A stretch of 52,583 nucleotides of DNA from Kiritimatiellia bacterium. GTDB taxonomy: Bacteria; Verrucomicrobiota; Kiritimatiellia; CAIVKH01. The notes under the pieces are model-generated. The model made no database searches and was not told the DNA's origin. It saw only the letters and a program-made list of their open reading frames with translations. Position 1 is the first letter of the stretch. The number at the start of each line of letters is the position of its first letter. The stretch is taken from contig JANWZO010000004.1 of assembly GCA_025054615.1 (NCBI GenBank), positions 108,982-161,564 on the forward strand, written 5' to 3'. Both the position numbers and the translations under genes were made by a program. Below, one piece after another: positions 41,285-47,536 of the stretch.

Positions 41285-43735
41285 TCAGATGCCGAGGCGC
41301 TGGCGGCGCGCGTGCTCGGCGAGCGTCTGGTTCGTCGTCGGGGTGTGGCCCTTGAGCGGAAGGATGCGCTCATGGACCGCGTCGACGATCCACTCCGCCT
41401 GCGGGAAGAAAACTTCCTCCATTTCCGCGCAGGGGGTGATCCAGTTTCGCGACCCGACAACCACCGGCGGGGCGTCGAGGTCGTCGAAACAGAACTGCGC
41501 GAGATTGGCGGCAATGGTCTGCATCATGCTGCCTCGCTCGCTGGCGTCGCCCGCGATGAGGACGCGACCCGTTTTGCGGACCGACTCAATTAGCGGATCG
41601 TAGTCGAGCGGGTTGAGAGTCCGGCAATCCCAGATATCCGAGGTCAACCCGTGGTGTTTCTCGAGATAATCGGCCGCTTCGATCGCGCGATACAGCGTCG
41701 CGCCAATGGTGATCAGCGTCAGGTCCCGGCCTGTGCGCCGTTTAGCGGGCGGTCCAAAGGGAATCTCGTAGTAGTCCGCGGGGACCTCCTTCTCGAAGAG
41801 CTCGCCGATGTCATACAGGCGCTGGCTTTCGAAAAACACGACCGGGTCGCTGCCGGCGAGGGCGGTGTTGAGAAGGCCTTTGGCGTCGTAGGGTGTGGCA
41901 GGGAACGCGACTTTCAACCCCGGGATGTGTGCGACCATCGCCGTCCAGTCCTGCGAATGCTGCGCGCCGTATTTCGAACCCACCGAAACCCGCAGCACGA
42001 CCGGCATCTCGAGCACGCCGGCGGACATGCTCTGCCACTTGGCAAGCTGGTTGAAGATTTCATCGCCCGCGCGGCCCATGAAGTCGCAATACATCAGCTC
42101 GACCAGCGCGCGTCCGCCCTCGAGCGCGTAGCCCACGGCCGTGCCGACGATAGCTGCCTCGGAGATCGGGGCGTTGAAGAGTCGGTGGTATGGCAGCGCC
42201 TCGGTGAGACCGCGGTAGCAGGCGAACGCCCCGCCCCAGTCGCGATTCTCTTCGCCGTACGCGACGAGAGTGGGGTCGACGGTGAACCGGTGGATGATCG
42301 CCTCAAAAATGGCGTCGCGATACTGGTAGACCTTGGTTTTCGGGACCGGTTTGCCATCGACCATGCCGGACCGGATTTTCTTGGCGATGGCCTGCACGCG
42401 CGGGTTTTCCGATAGAGGCTGGCGCAGCTCGGCGGGCCCCTCGGCGTAGGCCTCGCGCCGTTTGTTGGAGAACATGACATCGCCGATTCGCTCGGCCTCG
42501 AGGCGGGGCGAAATGGACAGGTCGGAGGCGAGCTTCAGCGCGAACGTCATCAGGTCCCGCGTGGCCTGCTTCTTCGTTTCCAACGCGGCGGCGTCGATCG
42601 CGCCGAGGGCCACAAGCTCGTCGGCGAACCAGCGGAGCGGATCCACCCGTTGCCAGAGCTCCATCTCCTCCTTGGTGCGGTAAGAGGAGGCATCGGATGG
42701 AGAGTGGCCGGAGAATCGGTAGGTGATCGTGTCCAGAAGGACCGGGCCGTCGCCCTCATCGAGGATCCGGCGCTTGCGCTCGATGGCGTCAGCGACAGCG
42801 AGCGGGTTGTAGCCGTCCACGCGCTCGGCATGCATGCCTTCGGGGTTGACCCCGAGCCCGACGCGGGCGAGCACGTCGTAGCCCATCGTCTCGCCGGAGG
42901 TCTGCCCACCCATTCCGTAGAAATTGTTCATGAAGTTGAAGATGATCGGGAGGCCGCCGCGGTGCGCCTCATCCCACAGCATCTTGAACTGTCCCATCGC
43001 GGCGAAGTTGAGTGCCTCCCAGACAGGGCCGCAGCCCATCGAAGCATCGCCGATGTTCGCGATCACGATGCCCTTTCGGCGCATCACCTTTTTGAAGAGC
43101 GCGGCGCCGGCGGCGATGTCCGCCGACCCGCCGACGATCGCATTGTTCGGGTAAATGCCAAATGGGGTGAAAAAGGCGTGCATCGACCCGCCCAGCCCGC
43201 GGTTGAAGCCCGCCTTCCGTCCGAAGATTTCCGCGAGCGCGCCGTACACAAGAAACTTCACCGCCAACTCGCGCACCGTGCCCGAATGCCCCGGCTCCAC
43301 CACCGCGAGGCATTCGCCGTTGAGAAACTCGCGCATGATCCGCATCAGCGTATCGTCATCGAGCTTGCGGATCGCGGACATACCTTTGGCGAGGATTTCG
43401 CCGTGCGACCGATGCGAGCCGAAAATGTGGTCGTCCACGGTCAGGTGGAACGCCTGGCCCACCGCCGCGGCCTCCTGTCCAATCGACAGGTGCGCGGGCC
43501 CCTTGTGATCGTACGCGATGCCGTTGTACGCGCCCTCGGTCTTGATCGCATGCAGCATGCTCTCAAATTCGCGGATGAGCAGCATGTCCTCGTAAATGCC
43601 GACGAGCGCCTCGGCGCCAAACCGCCTGAGTTCGTCGGCAAGGGGCCGGTTGTACTGGCACAGCGGCAGTTCCGGGGCACGAAGAACGGCCGGTTTTCGC
43701 TCTTTGGCAGGGTCGACAATCAGGTCTTTGGGCAT
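41285..43735 (-). CDS. 2-oxoacid dehydrogenase E1, fused alpha and beta chains
   Basis: An 816-residue thiamine-diphosphate enzyme. The alpha part (about residues 40-420) has the TPP-binding [18 protein letters not shown] near 227 with [11 protein letters not shown] about 40 residues on, and [20 protein letters not shown] near 338. The beta part (about 465-816) has [15 protein letters not shown], the catalytic-Glu segment [20 protein letters not shown] near 527, and a transketolase-like C-domain. Most bacteria make alpha and beta separately or as PDH-E1 dimers; here they are fused. AAGGAG precedes the ATG by 10 nt. Substrate could be pyruvate, acetoin or a branched-chain oxoacid. Confidence 0.93.
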
Positions 43736-43759: not shown

Positions 43760-45106
43760 TCAGTGCAGAGAAAAGACTGCGTCGCGCATCGTCTCGGATG
43801 CCGTGGGGTGCGGGAAGACCAGTTCTTCAATTTCCGGCACGCGCGCCTCCAGTTCGATGAGCGCCGCGCATCCAAAGATCATTTCCGAACACGCGCCACC
43901 AATTAGGTGAGCGCCGAGCAGGACCCCTGTATCCGCGTGAACCACCATCTTCGCTAAGCCGCGCTCCGCAGCATGCTCCGCGAGGAATCGGCCGTTGGCG
44001 GTCATGGGCCATTTCACCACCTTTACGGGGATGCCACGCGCGGCGGCATCGGCCTCGCTCAGGCCGACGACGGCGACCTCCGGATTCGTGTAGACGACGC
44101 CCGGAATGGCATGCCAACGCATCCGATCGGGCCGGCCGGTCAGGTTGTTGACGACGACCTCCCCCATTCGGCTGGCGGTGTGGGCCAGCCACGCGCGGCC
44201 GGTGCAATCGCCAATGGCGTAAACCCCCGGCTGATTGGTGGCGCAGCGGTCGTCCACGCGGATGCCGCGGCGGTCAAATTCGATGCGCGCCTCTTCCAAG
44301 CCCAGGCCCTTTACATTCGGGACGCGCCCCGTCGATACGAGCACGATGTCCCGCGGGACGGACTGTTCCTTGCCGCCTTTCTCGAAACGAACGGAATCGG
44401 CGGTGATCTCCAGAACCTTTGCCGAGACGTGAAACTCGATGTTTTTCTTCGACAATTCGGCGCGGAGTGTCCGCGAAATCTCCGCATCGATCTGCGGGCA
44501 GATCTCGGGCATCATCTCGATGACCGTGACGGGCACGCCCAAGGACCCGAAGCAGCAGGCGAACTCACAGCCGATCACCCCGCCCCCGATGACCACCAGA
44601 CTTCGGGGAAGCCGCTCCAGATTGAGCAGGCCCGTCGAATCGACAACGCCCGGCAGGTCGATGCCGGGGATTGGCGGCCTTGCCGGCGACGACCCCGTCG
44701 CCAGGATCACCGCACGGCCTTCATGGGTCTGTCCGTTGACGGCGACGGTCCGGGGGCCGACCAGGCGCGCAGAACCGAAAAGGACATCGACCTTGTATTT
44801 TTTCATCAGTCCCGCGATGCCGTTTCGCAAGGTTTTCATCACCTCTTCCTTGCGCGCCTGCGCGGCGGCCCAGTCGAAGGAGACATTGGCAGCGCGCACG
44901 CCATAGGCTTCGCCGTGCACGGCGTAATGGTAAAGCTTGGCCGAATTGAGCAGCGTTTTGGAAGGGATACAGCCCTCGTTGAGGCACACGCCACCGAGCT
45001 TCGCCTGTTCAATCAGCAGGACGCGCAGCCCTCGGGATCCCGCGCGTTCCGCCGCCACATACCCGCCGGGTCCAGCGCCGATAACAATGAGGTCGTACAT
45101 GGTCAT
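43760..45106 (-). CDS. lpdA: Dihydrolipoamide dehydrogenase (E3)
   Basis: A 448-residue FAD disulfide oxidoreductase that re-oxidises dihydrolipoyl groups with NAD+. The N-terminal dinucleotide fold is DLIVIGAGPGGYVAAERAG, the redox disulfide is GGVCLNEGCIPSK (residues about 37-49), NAD-binding VVIGGGVIGCEFACCFGSLG near 168, FAD-binding VYAIGDCTGRAWLAH near 298, and the catalytic HPTASE near 432. The ATG at 45104-45106 overlaps the E2 stop by 4 nt; the longer frame to 45640 is antisense-like shadow within E2. It sits between E2 and E1 in the operon. Confidence 0.97.
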   Translation of the reverse strand: MTMYDLIVIGAGPGGYVAAERAGSRGLRVLLIEQAKLGGVCLNEGCIPSKTLLNSAKLYHYAVHGEAYGVRAANVSFDWAAAQARKEEVMKTLRNGIAGLMKKYKVDVLFGSARLVGPRTVAVNGQTHEGRAVILATGSSPARPPIPGIDLPGVVDSTGLLNLERLPRSLVVIGGGVIGCEFACCFGSLGVPVTVIEMMPEICPQIDAEISRTLRAELSKKNIEFHVSAKVLEITADSVRFEKGGKEQSVPRDIVLVSTGRVPNVKGLGLEEARIEFDRRGIRVDDRCATNQPGVYAIGDCTGRAWLAHTASRMGEVVVNNLTGRPDRMRWHAIPGVVYTNPEVAVVGLSEADAAARGIPVKVVKWPMTANGRFLAEHAAERGLAKMVVHADTGVLLGAHLIGGACSEMIFGCAALIELEARVPEIEELVFPHPTASETMRDAVFSLH

Positions 45107-46497
45107 GCCTTTCCTGACGAAGAAGACGATGCGGGAGGCGCGGCGAGCAGCAGGTCGATGTGCTCGATCGCCGCGACGAGATCCTGGAGGAAGCGCGCCG
45201 CCGGTGCGCCGTCGACCGCCTGATGGTCGATCGTCAAACTGAAGCTGATGGTTTCGACAAACGCCACGGACCCATCGGGCCGGCGCGCGGGCTGAAGCGA
45301 AATGCCACCTACCCCGAGGATGGCGACCTCCGGCGCATTGAGCACCGGCGTGAAATAATCGATCCCCAGCGCGCCAAGGTTGGTCACGGTGAAGGTCCCG
45401 CCTGTCAGCAGATCCGGATTGATCGAGCCCGCCTGGCAGGCTTCCGCGCGCTCGCGGATTGCTGCCGATAACGCGGCGATGGAGAGCCGATCGGCCCCGT
45501 GGATCACCGGGACCATCAAGCCGCGCGGCGTGTCGACAGCCACACCGAGGTTTACGGCGCCGAACTCCACGATTCGATCGCCGAGGAAATGCGCGTTGAG
45601 GGACGGGTGTTTCTTCAGCGCGTGAAGCGCGGCATAGCACACCAAATCGTTGATGGTGAGTTTCGGCAGGCCAAATGCCTCGCCCTGCGCCTTGGCCCTG
45701 GCTCGAAACGCCTGCACGACGGAGAGGTCCGCGCGGGCGTGCAGCGTGAGCTGCGCGGTCGTCGAGAGGGATTGGCGCATCCGGTCGGCGATGATCTTGC
45801 GAATGCCCTTCACCGGGATCTCGCGCTTCGTTCCGGCCTCTATCGCGGCGGGCTCCAAGGCCGCGGCTGCGCCGGCCTCCGGCGGAGCCAACCGGTCCGC
45901 CGCCGTGATCCGGCCGCCCAGCCCGCTCCCGCGCCGCGGCAGCGCATCGGGAGTCGAAGCCCCTGCCGCACGGGCTGCCGCGGTCAAAGGCGGAACTGTC
46001 GCGGCCGCCGCAAGAACATCGCGTTCAATCACCCGTCCGCCGGGTCCGCTTCCCGCGAGCGCAGAAGGATCAATCCCCGCCCGGGCAGACGCCTTACGCG
46101 CGCGCGGAGACACGCCAACCGAACCCGATGGCGCTGCCGGTTCTTTGGGCGCGGGCGCTGCGGTTGCGGGCGAAGCCGCGGCCCCGGGCGCCGGGCTCGC
46201 CGGCGCGGGAGCAGCCGCAGGCGCGGCCCCCGCCGGACGCAAGGCCGAAACATCTTCGCCGGGCGCCCCGATCGCGCCGATATGGGTCAATACGGGAATG
46301 TCCGCGCCCTCCGGGAAAAACAATTCCACAACAGTCCCACCCGCCGGTGCGGGGACCTCGAACGTGGCCTTGTCCGTCTCAATGCTCGCCACCGGCTGGC
46401 CCTCGACCACCGTGTCACCGGGCTTCACCAGCCATTTGACGAGAATGCAGCTTTCAACCGATTGCCCCTGCCTCGGCATGATGATGGGTACGGCCAT
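45103..46497 (-). CDS. 2-oxoacid dehydrogenase E2 (dihydrolipoyl acyltransferase)
   Basis: A 464-residue acyltransferase core. The lipoyl domain (residues 1-80) has the lipoylated lysine in IETDKATFEV near residue 42; an Ala/Pro linker follows; a peripheral-subunit-binding domain is GVSPRARKASARAGIDPSAL with GSGPGGRVIERDV near 130-165; then a second partial copy of its end, GSGLGGRITAADRL, near 190-203. The catalytic domain ends with SLTIDHQAVDGAPAARFLQD near 430. The ATG at 46497 has GAGGAGG 7 nt upstream. It is 2 bp from the DeoR regulator gene. The duplicated binding-domain end is an oddity. Confidence 0.94.
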   Translation of the reverse strand: MAVPIIMPRQGQSVESCILVKWLVKPGDTVVEGQPVASIETDKATFEVPAPAGGTVVELFFPEGADIPVLTHIGAIGAPGEDVSALRPAGAAPAAAPAPASPAPGAAASPATAAPAPKEPAAPSGSVGVSPRARKASARAGIDPSALAGSGPGGRVIERDVLAAAATVPPLTAAARAAGASTPDALPRRGSGLGGRITAADRLAPPEAGAAAALEPAAIEAGTKREIPVKGIRKIIADRMRQSLSTTAQLTLHARADLSVVQAFRARAKAQGEAFGLPKLTINDLVCYAALHALKKHPSLNAHFLGDRIVEFGAVNLGVAVDTPRGLMVPVIHGADRLSIAALSAAIRERAEACQAGSINPDLLTGGTFTVTNLGALGIDYFTPVLNAPEVAILGVGGISLQPARRPDGSVAFVETISFSLTIDHQAVDGAPAARFLQDLVAAIEHIDLLLAAPPASSSSSGKA

Positions 46498-46499
46498 GG

Positions 46500-47288
46500 T
46501 CAATCCTCCTCGGCGATCATAACGCGAATACCTTTTGCACGCAGCGATTTTATAAACGACGGGTCCGCACCGGCGTCGGTGATCAACACGTCGAAATCTT
46601 CAATTTTTCCCGCATTTGAAAATGACGTCTTTCCGATTTTCCCGCTGTCAGCCAGCACGACCACCTCGTGAGCGCGGCGCATCGCCTCTCGCTTTGTGAA
46701 CGCCTCGTTGGCGTCGGTGGTCGTGAGGCCCTCTTCAATCGACAGGCCGATCGTGCCCATGAAGGCTCGATCCACCCGTAGATGGGCAAGGAGCGGTTGC
46801 GTGAGCGGACCCACGAGTGTCTGGCTCAGCCGACGCAACTCACCGCCGATGAGGATCACGCGCGGACCCTGGCCCGACAGCTCGACGGCCGCGCGCAGTG
46901 AATTGGTGACCACGGTCACGTTCGCGCGGTCGCGTAGCAGGCGCGCCAACTCGAGCACCGTGCTGCCGCCGTCGAGGTAAATCGTCTCACTTGGCCGGAT
47001 CAGGCGAAGGGCAGCTTTCGCGATAGCCCTCTTTTCCCGCGAGCGAATGGCCGCCTTGTCATCAAAGAGAGGCTCGTCCACCGGGAGCTCCGCACTCACC
47101 GCACCGCCGTGGACCCGCCGGATATGTCCGGCCGCTTCCAATGTTTCGAGGTCCCTCCGCGCCGTAGCGGGCGAAATCCCCAGCGCACGGACGATTTCTT
47201 CGACACGCGCAGCCCCCCGCTGGCGGATGAACGCACGCAACCGCTGGTGCCGTTCCCATGCCAAATCGCGCTGACCCGAATTGATCAT
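46500..47288 (-). CDS. DeoR-family transcriptional regulator
   Basis: A 262-residue repressor-type protein. The N-terminal winged helix-turn-helix is AARVEEIVRALGISPATARRDLETLEAAG (about residues 26-54, quoted here as AARVEEIVRALGIS then PATARRDLETLE). The C-terminal DeoRC sensor domain has IYLDGGSTVLELARLL near 102, NSLRAAVEL near 127, FMGTIGLSIEEGLTTTDANE near 174, and ADSGKIGKTSF near 210. Such proteins sense phosphorylated sugars. It is first in the operon with E2, E3 and E1, and its ATG lies inside a phased repeat array, so autoregulation is likely. No ribosome-binding site is seen. Confidence 0.93.
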   Translation of the reverse strand: MINSGQRDLAWERHQRLRAFIRQRGAARVEEIVRALGISPATARRDLETLEAAGHIRRVHGGAVSAELPVDEPLFDDKAAIRSREKRAIAKAALRLIRPSETIYLDGGSTVLELARLLRDRANVTVVTNSLRAAVELSGQGPRVILIGGELRRLSQTLVGPLTQPLLAHLRVDRAFMGTIGLSIEEGLTTTDANEAFTKREAMRRAHEVVVLADSGKIGKTSFSNAGKIEDFDVLITDAGADPSFIKSLRAKGIRVMIAEED

Positions 47289-47326
47289 TTGTGAGCGATA
47301 TTGAGCACTATTGATCGATTGTCAAC
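47281..47326. promoter_or_regulatory. Phased direct-repeat operator array of the DeoR operon
   Basis: Read on the plus strand, five hexamers recur every 10 bp: TTGATC (47281), GTGAGC (47291), TTGAGC (47301), TTGATC (47311), GTCAAC (47321), consensus TTGAKC. A weaker CTGACC continues the phase at 47271. DeoR-family operators are often direct repeats spaced by one helical turn. The array covers the promoter region and the regulator's own start codon at 47286-47288. Confidence 0.7.
47297..47325 (-). promoter_or_regulatory. Putative promoter of the DeoR-E2-E3-E1 operon
   Basis: A perfect -35 TTGACA (plus 47320-47325) is followed after 17 bp by a weak -10 AATATC (47297-47302). The promoter lies inside the repeat array, so bound regulator would block it. 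Predicted transcription would begin next to the ATG. Confidence 0.45.
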
Positions 47327-47536
47327 AAAATTTTTTGCACACCTGACCCTCAGACGGGGAAGATCAAGCGGCATCGGCCACGCCGGGGCGAAGCCGCTGG
47401 GTGGAGGATTGGCGCCGCAAAACCGCACAGAAGAAGGCGGCTGTAAAACCGATACCTTCGCCGGAGGCGAAACCGGCCGGGTGTGAAATCGCTCGATGCC
47501 GAGTGCGCGGGCAGGGCCGCGCGTGCAAAACGGGGT

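Follow-up and report, generated by a model that had tools for sequence, protein, structure and literature searches.

The regulator gene that opens a predicted 2-oxoacid dehydrogenase operon (deoR-E2-E3-E1) in a Kiritimatiellia bacterium starts within an array of four TGATCA-like units spaced one helical turn apart. This array is best read, with a probability of roughly 0.85, as a helically phased autorepression operator of the adjoining DeoR protein, which would be released by a ligand and control the whole operon. The array lies in a window (the whole stretch of DNA analysed) of 52,583 nt from contig JANWZO010000004.1 (GCA_025054615.1), positions 108,982-161,564 of the forward strand. Units were scored with a weight matrix (PWM) built from 23 orthologous upstream regions, that of the window among them. 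The relevant features are the following:

41285..43735, minus strand: E1, fused alpha-beta chain of 816 aa, 24 bp after E3
43760..45106, minus strand: E3, dihydrolipoyl dehydrogenase, exceeding the curated cut-off of TIGR01350; ATGA overlap with E2
45103..46497, minus strand: E2, dihydrolipoamide acyltransferase, its ATG about 2-3 bp after the deoR stop
46500..47288, minus strand: deoR-family regulator gene, 262 aa, HTH_DeoR plus DeoRC, ATG at 47288
47272..47277, plus strand: TGACCC, in phase but doubtful as a unit, within deoR; found by the pattern search with one mismatch, PWM -6.1
47282..47287, plus strand: operator unit 1, TGATCA, PWM 8.3 on the plus and 11.1 on the minus strand; overlaps the deoR ATG and equals the relatives' unit at +38 from the -35
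47292..47297, plus strand: operator unit 2, TGAGCG, PWM 11.2; equals the relatives' unit at +28 from the -35
47302..47307, plus strand: operator unit 3, TGAGCA, PWM 5.5; equals the relatives' unit at +18 from the -35
47312..47317, plus strand: operator unit 4, TGATCG, PWM 10.8; equals the relatives' unit at +8, just 3' of the -35
47297..47302, minus strand: candidate -10, AATATC, with a 17-bp spacer; weak and of uncertain position, CAATAT being an alternative reading
47320..47325, minus strand: -35 element, TTGACA; many orthologues have a TTGAC-like element at the corresponding place with respect to their units

On the plus strand, the units appear as the hexamers TTGATC (47281-47286), GTGAGC (47291-47296), TTGAGC (47301-47306), and TTGATC (47311-47316), in exact steps of 10 bp. 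An earlier note on this DNA had counted five TTGAKC-like hexamers at such steps between 47281 and 47326, four of which stand; the fifth (GTCAAC, 47321-47326) agrees with TTGAKC at 3 of 6 bases, has a PWM score of -4.1, and was rejected, as was an extra unit at 47272 (TGACC), which is weak by its score. Within the 105 bp around the array, the PWM ranks 47282, 47292, 47302, and 47312 highest, exactly the four units. The pattern TGAKC-N5, taken four times, matches the window exactly once and, with up to three mismatches, gives three overlapping matches, all of them at the array, where shuffles lead to an expectation of 0.10. In the form of a three-unit pattern with at most one mismatch, the array is the sole locus in the 2.48-Mb genome, and the reversed control gives 0.

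Read along the coding strand, TTGACA comes first and is followed by the four units, the first three located 5' of the ATG and the last one over it. The array had also been said to cover both the TTGACA promoter and the start codon; the latter part is borne out, since the ATG at 47288 lies under the last good unit, but TTGACA is found just upstream of the array, under no good unit. The promoter is a consensus reading, as a strict sigma-70 scan found none at the deoR array. The start of deoR, close behind the -10 and with no evident Shine-Dalgarno sequence, as in several relatives, suggests a leaderless or near-leaderless message, even if the -10 is weak here. Just 5' of this promoter, three terminator-like stem-loops (0.2 expected) are present on the minus strand at 47369-47451, and might end a transcript arriving from upstream.

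The protein encoded by deoR holds an N-terminal HTH_DeoR domain (PF08220; 61.9 bits, cut-off 21) and a C-terminal DeoRC sensor domain (PF00455; 171.5 bits, cut-off 31.8), which places it in the DeoR family. All named equivalogs (GlpR_Halo, AgaR, SrlR, UlaR, DeoR, and others) remain under their curated cut-offs, with scores of 189/300 for GlpR_Halo, 166/260 for AgaR, and 103/244 for DeoR. In the predicted structure (pLDDT 83.7), the sensor domain is nearest to E. coli DeoR (7L6L; TM 0.88 over the target, 27% identity), followed by ribose-5-phosphate isomerases. Due to this fold, a sugar-phosphate-like ligand is the natural guess for the effector of the modelled protein. The same genome encodes a second DeoR protein on contig C23.

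The four genes follow one another in the order deoR-E2-E3-E1, with tight junctions throughout. The best sequence matches are pyruvate and general 2-oxoacid dehydrogenases, and the encoded complex is probably a 2-oxoacid dehydrogenase of the pyruvate type. Elsewhere, the genome encodes a second 2-oxoacid dehydrogenase set (contig C26) along with a PFOR-like protein and additional E1-like matches, which suggests that the complex of the deoR operon is probably conditional and not the sole route. The set on C26 (C26:1633-5020, L167) consists of separate E1 alpha and E1 beta genes plus E2.

According to the model proposed here, neighbouring TGATCA-like units, which lie one helical turn apart and therefore face the same side of the DNA, would be occupied by the DeoR protein, side by side and presumably in a cooperative manner. 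The bound protein would span the promoter spacer, the -10, the start point, and the start codon, excluding the RNA polymerase and repressing the single-promoter operon deoR-E2-E3-E1, the regulator itself included. As the array lies over a single promoter able to serve all four genes, such repression would mean autoregulation and control of the enzyme complex at once. The C-terminal domain is predicted to bind a small metabolite, which analogy with the family suggests to be a sugar phosphate, and this would release the protein and thereby induce a conditional 2-oxoacid (probably pyruvate-type) dehydrogenase complex. Units placed over the spacer, the -10, and the start codon of an operon headed by its regulator fit autorepression, and the tight autorepression put forward in the earlier note is to that extent supported, binding being predicted.

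This arrangement is widely retained among relatives. A search of 58 relatives returned deoR orthologues at 46-75% identity, with E1 and/or E2 following deoR in all 20 contexts fetched. A second set comprised 80 loci of named genomes, with 15 sequences identical to members of the first set; E1 and/or E2 lie directly downstream of deoR in 78, one of the remaining two being cut by a contig end. In-phase pairs, defined as TGATY/TGAGC units in either orientation spaced 10, 20, 30, or 40 bp, number 95 in the 23 upstream regions (window included), compared to a mean of 1.3 (maximum 7) in 1000 dinucleotide shuffles and to 0 in four control regions. Since the motif had been read off this same set, the test was repeated, with the motif unchanged, on 63 loci unused in defining it. 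These hold 147 in-phase pairs versus 2.9 in shuffles (maximum 8 in 500), at least one pair being found in 45 of the 63 loci versus 2.7 in shuffles. By a four-unit chain score, 46 of these 63 loci exceed the 99% null level, as do 0 of 7 distant DeoR paralogues. The loci share kinship and the counts are not independent trials; yet unconstrained promoters at 50-64% protein identity would hardly keep such phasing. The comparison of upstream regions of orthologous deoR-E2 operons, which the earlier note had proposed as a check, thus finds the phased units and their promoter register conserved in most deoR-E1/E2 operons. A chance or compositional repeat without function, which the shortness of the units could bring to mind, is extremely improbable, as it is excluded by the shuffles, the control regions, the uniqueness in the genome, and the out-of-sample loci, together with the conservation of both units and phase.

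The 17 test loci below the 99% level belong mainly to some Acidobacteriota, Hydrogenedentota, and Chloroflexi, plus some Kiritimatiellota and Lentisphaerota. Their recognition helices show no obvious difference and no correlation with the loss of the array. Three Hydrogenedentota loci (L073, L074, and L093) keep deoR before E2-E1 and have no recognisable array of the TGATY/TGAGC motif; their operators may have diverged. In the closest relative found (L032:9104-10935, G006:C58), all that is left of the operon downstream of deoR is the lipoyl end of E2 and fragments from the C-terminal half of E1, through either decay or misassembly.

The position of the units relative to the promoter could be measured in the 63 of 86 upstream regions with a promoter-like match. 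Measured from where the best -35-like element begins, unit positions show peaks at -13, -3, +7/8, +17/18, +28, and +38, and the four units of the window are located at +8, +18, +28, and +38. At longer range, the spacings are dominated by 10, 20/21, 30/31, and 40/41 bp, as expected from about 10.5 bp per turn. The unit itself is a near-palindrome (TGATCA-like) that is found in either orientation at one register. Units near the -35 are mostly TGATT and those downstream of the -10 are mostly RATCA or GCTCA, the register being kept across the switch. Overlap with the TTGAC element partly dictates how the unit at -3 is oriented, but does not account for the bias at +28 and +38 (46 of 50); all four units of the window have the downstream orientation. 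A purely direct repeat is too narrow a description for the family, whose near-palindromic units occur in either orientation at the same register.

The existence of units upstream of the -35 (position -13) in some relatives, together with a weak match of the regulator to the fucose-operon activator model PRK10411, leaves a small likelihood that the DeoR protein binds the array to activate or dually regulate the dehydrogenase operon. This is quite unlikely for the window, where the good units are all downstream of the -35, over the spacer, the -10, and the ATG, and where binding should block the polymerase. Moreover, a study of Caldicellulosiruptor examined 12 LacI- and DeoR-family regulators, found the sites of every one over promoters or in 5' UTRs, and classed all of them as repressors (PMC8579813).

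Autorepression by the neighbouring regulator would also be replaced if the array were read by another protein, such as a second DeoR paralogue or a global regulator. The genome does hold the DeoR protein of contig C23 mentioned above, and a similar array accompanies a distant DeoR paralogue in a different genome. However, the pattern occurs at no other place in the genome, which is what one would expect of a local regulator, the array travels with the deoR orthologue in most loci, and no such array is seen by eye upstream of the C23 paralogue, making a different reader very unlikely.

The proposed repression by the neighbouring DeoR protein from tandem units has a close precedent. In Chloroflexus, the DeoR-family repressor RhaR occupies a 38-bp stretch containing four tandem hexamers at its own operon promoter, as demonstrated by EMSA, and is released by L-rhamnulose; in the four groups of DeoR-family RhaR proteins, the units share a 10-11-bp periodicity (PMC3870299). 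Like the RhaR of Chloroflexus aurantiacus and relatives, the system described here combines a DeoR-family protein with four tandem units at its own operon promoter (here a consensus reading), and the spacing of about one helix turn is found both in the window and in its relatives. Repression with metabolite release is described for RhaR and predicted by analogy for its counterpart in the window. Both systems differ in the unit (TCGAAA in RhaR, TGATCA-like here), and RhaR targets rhamnose catabolism with L-rhamnulose as its ligand. On the other hand, E. coli DeoR (deo operon, 7L6L) shares the fold of the sensor domain and also represses from operators at its promoters (PMC8053113). Unlike the array, its operators are single, hundreds of bp apart, and act by DNA looping, no 10-bp array being described in PMC8053113; the regulator of the window scores far under the E. 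coli DeoR equivalog cut-off. PMC4694137 was considered as an AgaR precedent and discarded, as it deals with GntR-family proteins and palindromes.

This type of operator, with tandem units of 10-11 bp read by a DeoR-family protein, is hence already known, and the novelty of the present case lies in the motif itself (TGATY/TGAGC), in a 2-oxoacid dehydrogenase as the target, and in how widely the array is conserved. A few searches among open-licence papers, mostly by titles and abstracts, found no DeoR-family regulator of a 2-oxoacid or pyruvate dehydrogenase operon; those for DeoR with 10-bp repeats, IolR, and footprints likewise gave no such regulator by title or abstract among open-licence papers. 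In E. coli, the job predicted for the DeoR protein falls to PdhR, a GntR-family protein whose autoregulated gene heads the pyruvate dehydrogenase operon; both regulators head such an operon, whereas their protein families and motifs are unrelated. As a tentative extension, held with somewhat less than even confidence, an uncharacterised DeoR subfamily of Verrucomicrobiota, Kiritimatiellota, Lentisphaerota, and partly Acidobacteriota may tie a sugar-phosphate-type signal to acetyl-CoA production through near-palindromic units in either orientation, kept in one helical register locked to the promoter and with a polarity converging on it. These poorly studied bacteria would offer a testable regulon with a local repressor, a defined operator, and a 2-oxoacid dehydrogenase complex. 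Furthermore, with the register but not the orientation deeply conserved, these loci form a natural collection in which to study the reading of helically phased sites by DeoR proteins.

Among 193 genomes of the class, 21 contain TGATTGANNTCRATCA, at about 24 places altogether, and five of these places precede deoR-E1. The remaining places in these genomes have none of the operon genes nearby, and a wider regulon drawn from this sequence was discarded, no clear one emerging. In a different genomic context (L168:6527-6560, G033:C5), a DeoR paralogue of about 35-36% identity, encoded beside corrinoid methyltransferase-like genes, carries the similar array TGATTAGATTCGATCATGTTCGATCA over its start, suggesting that a second DeoR branch may use this operator word, which would then not be exclusive to the E1/E2-linked regulator.
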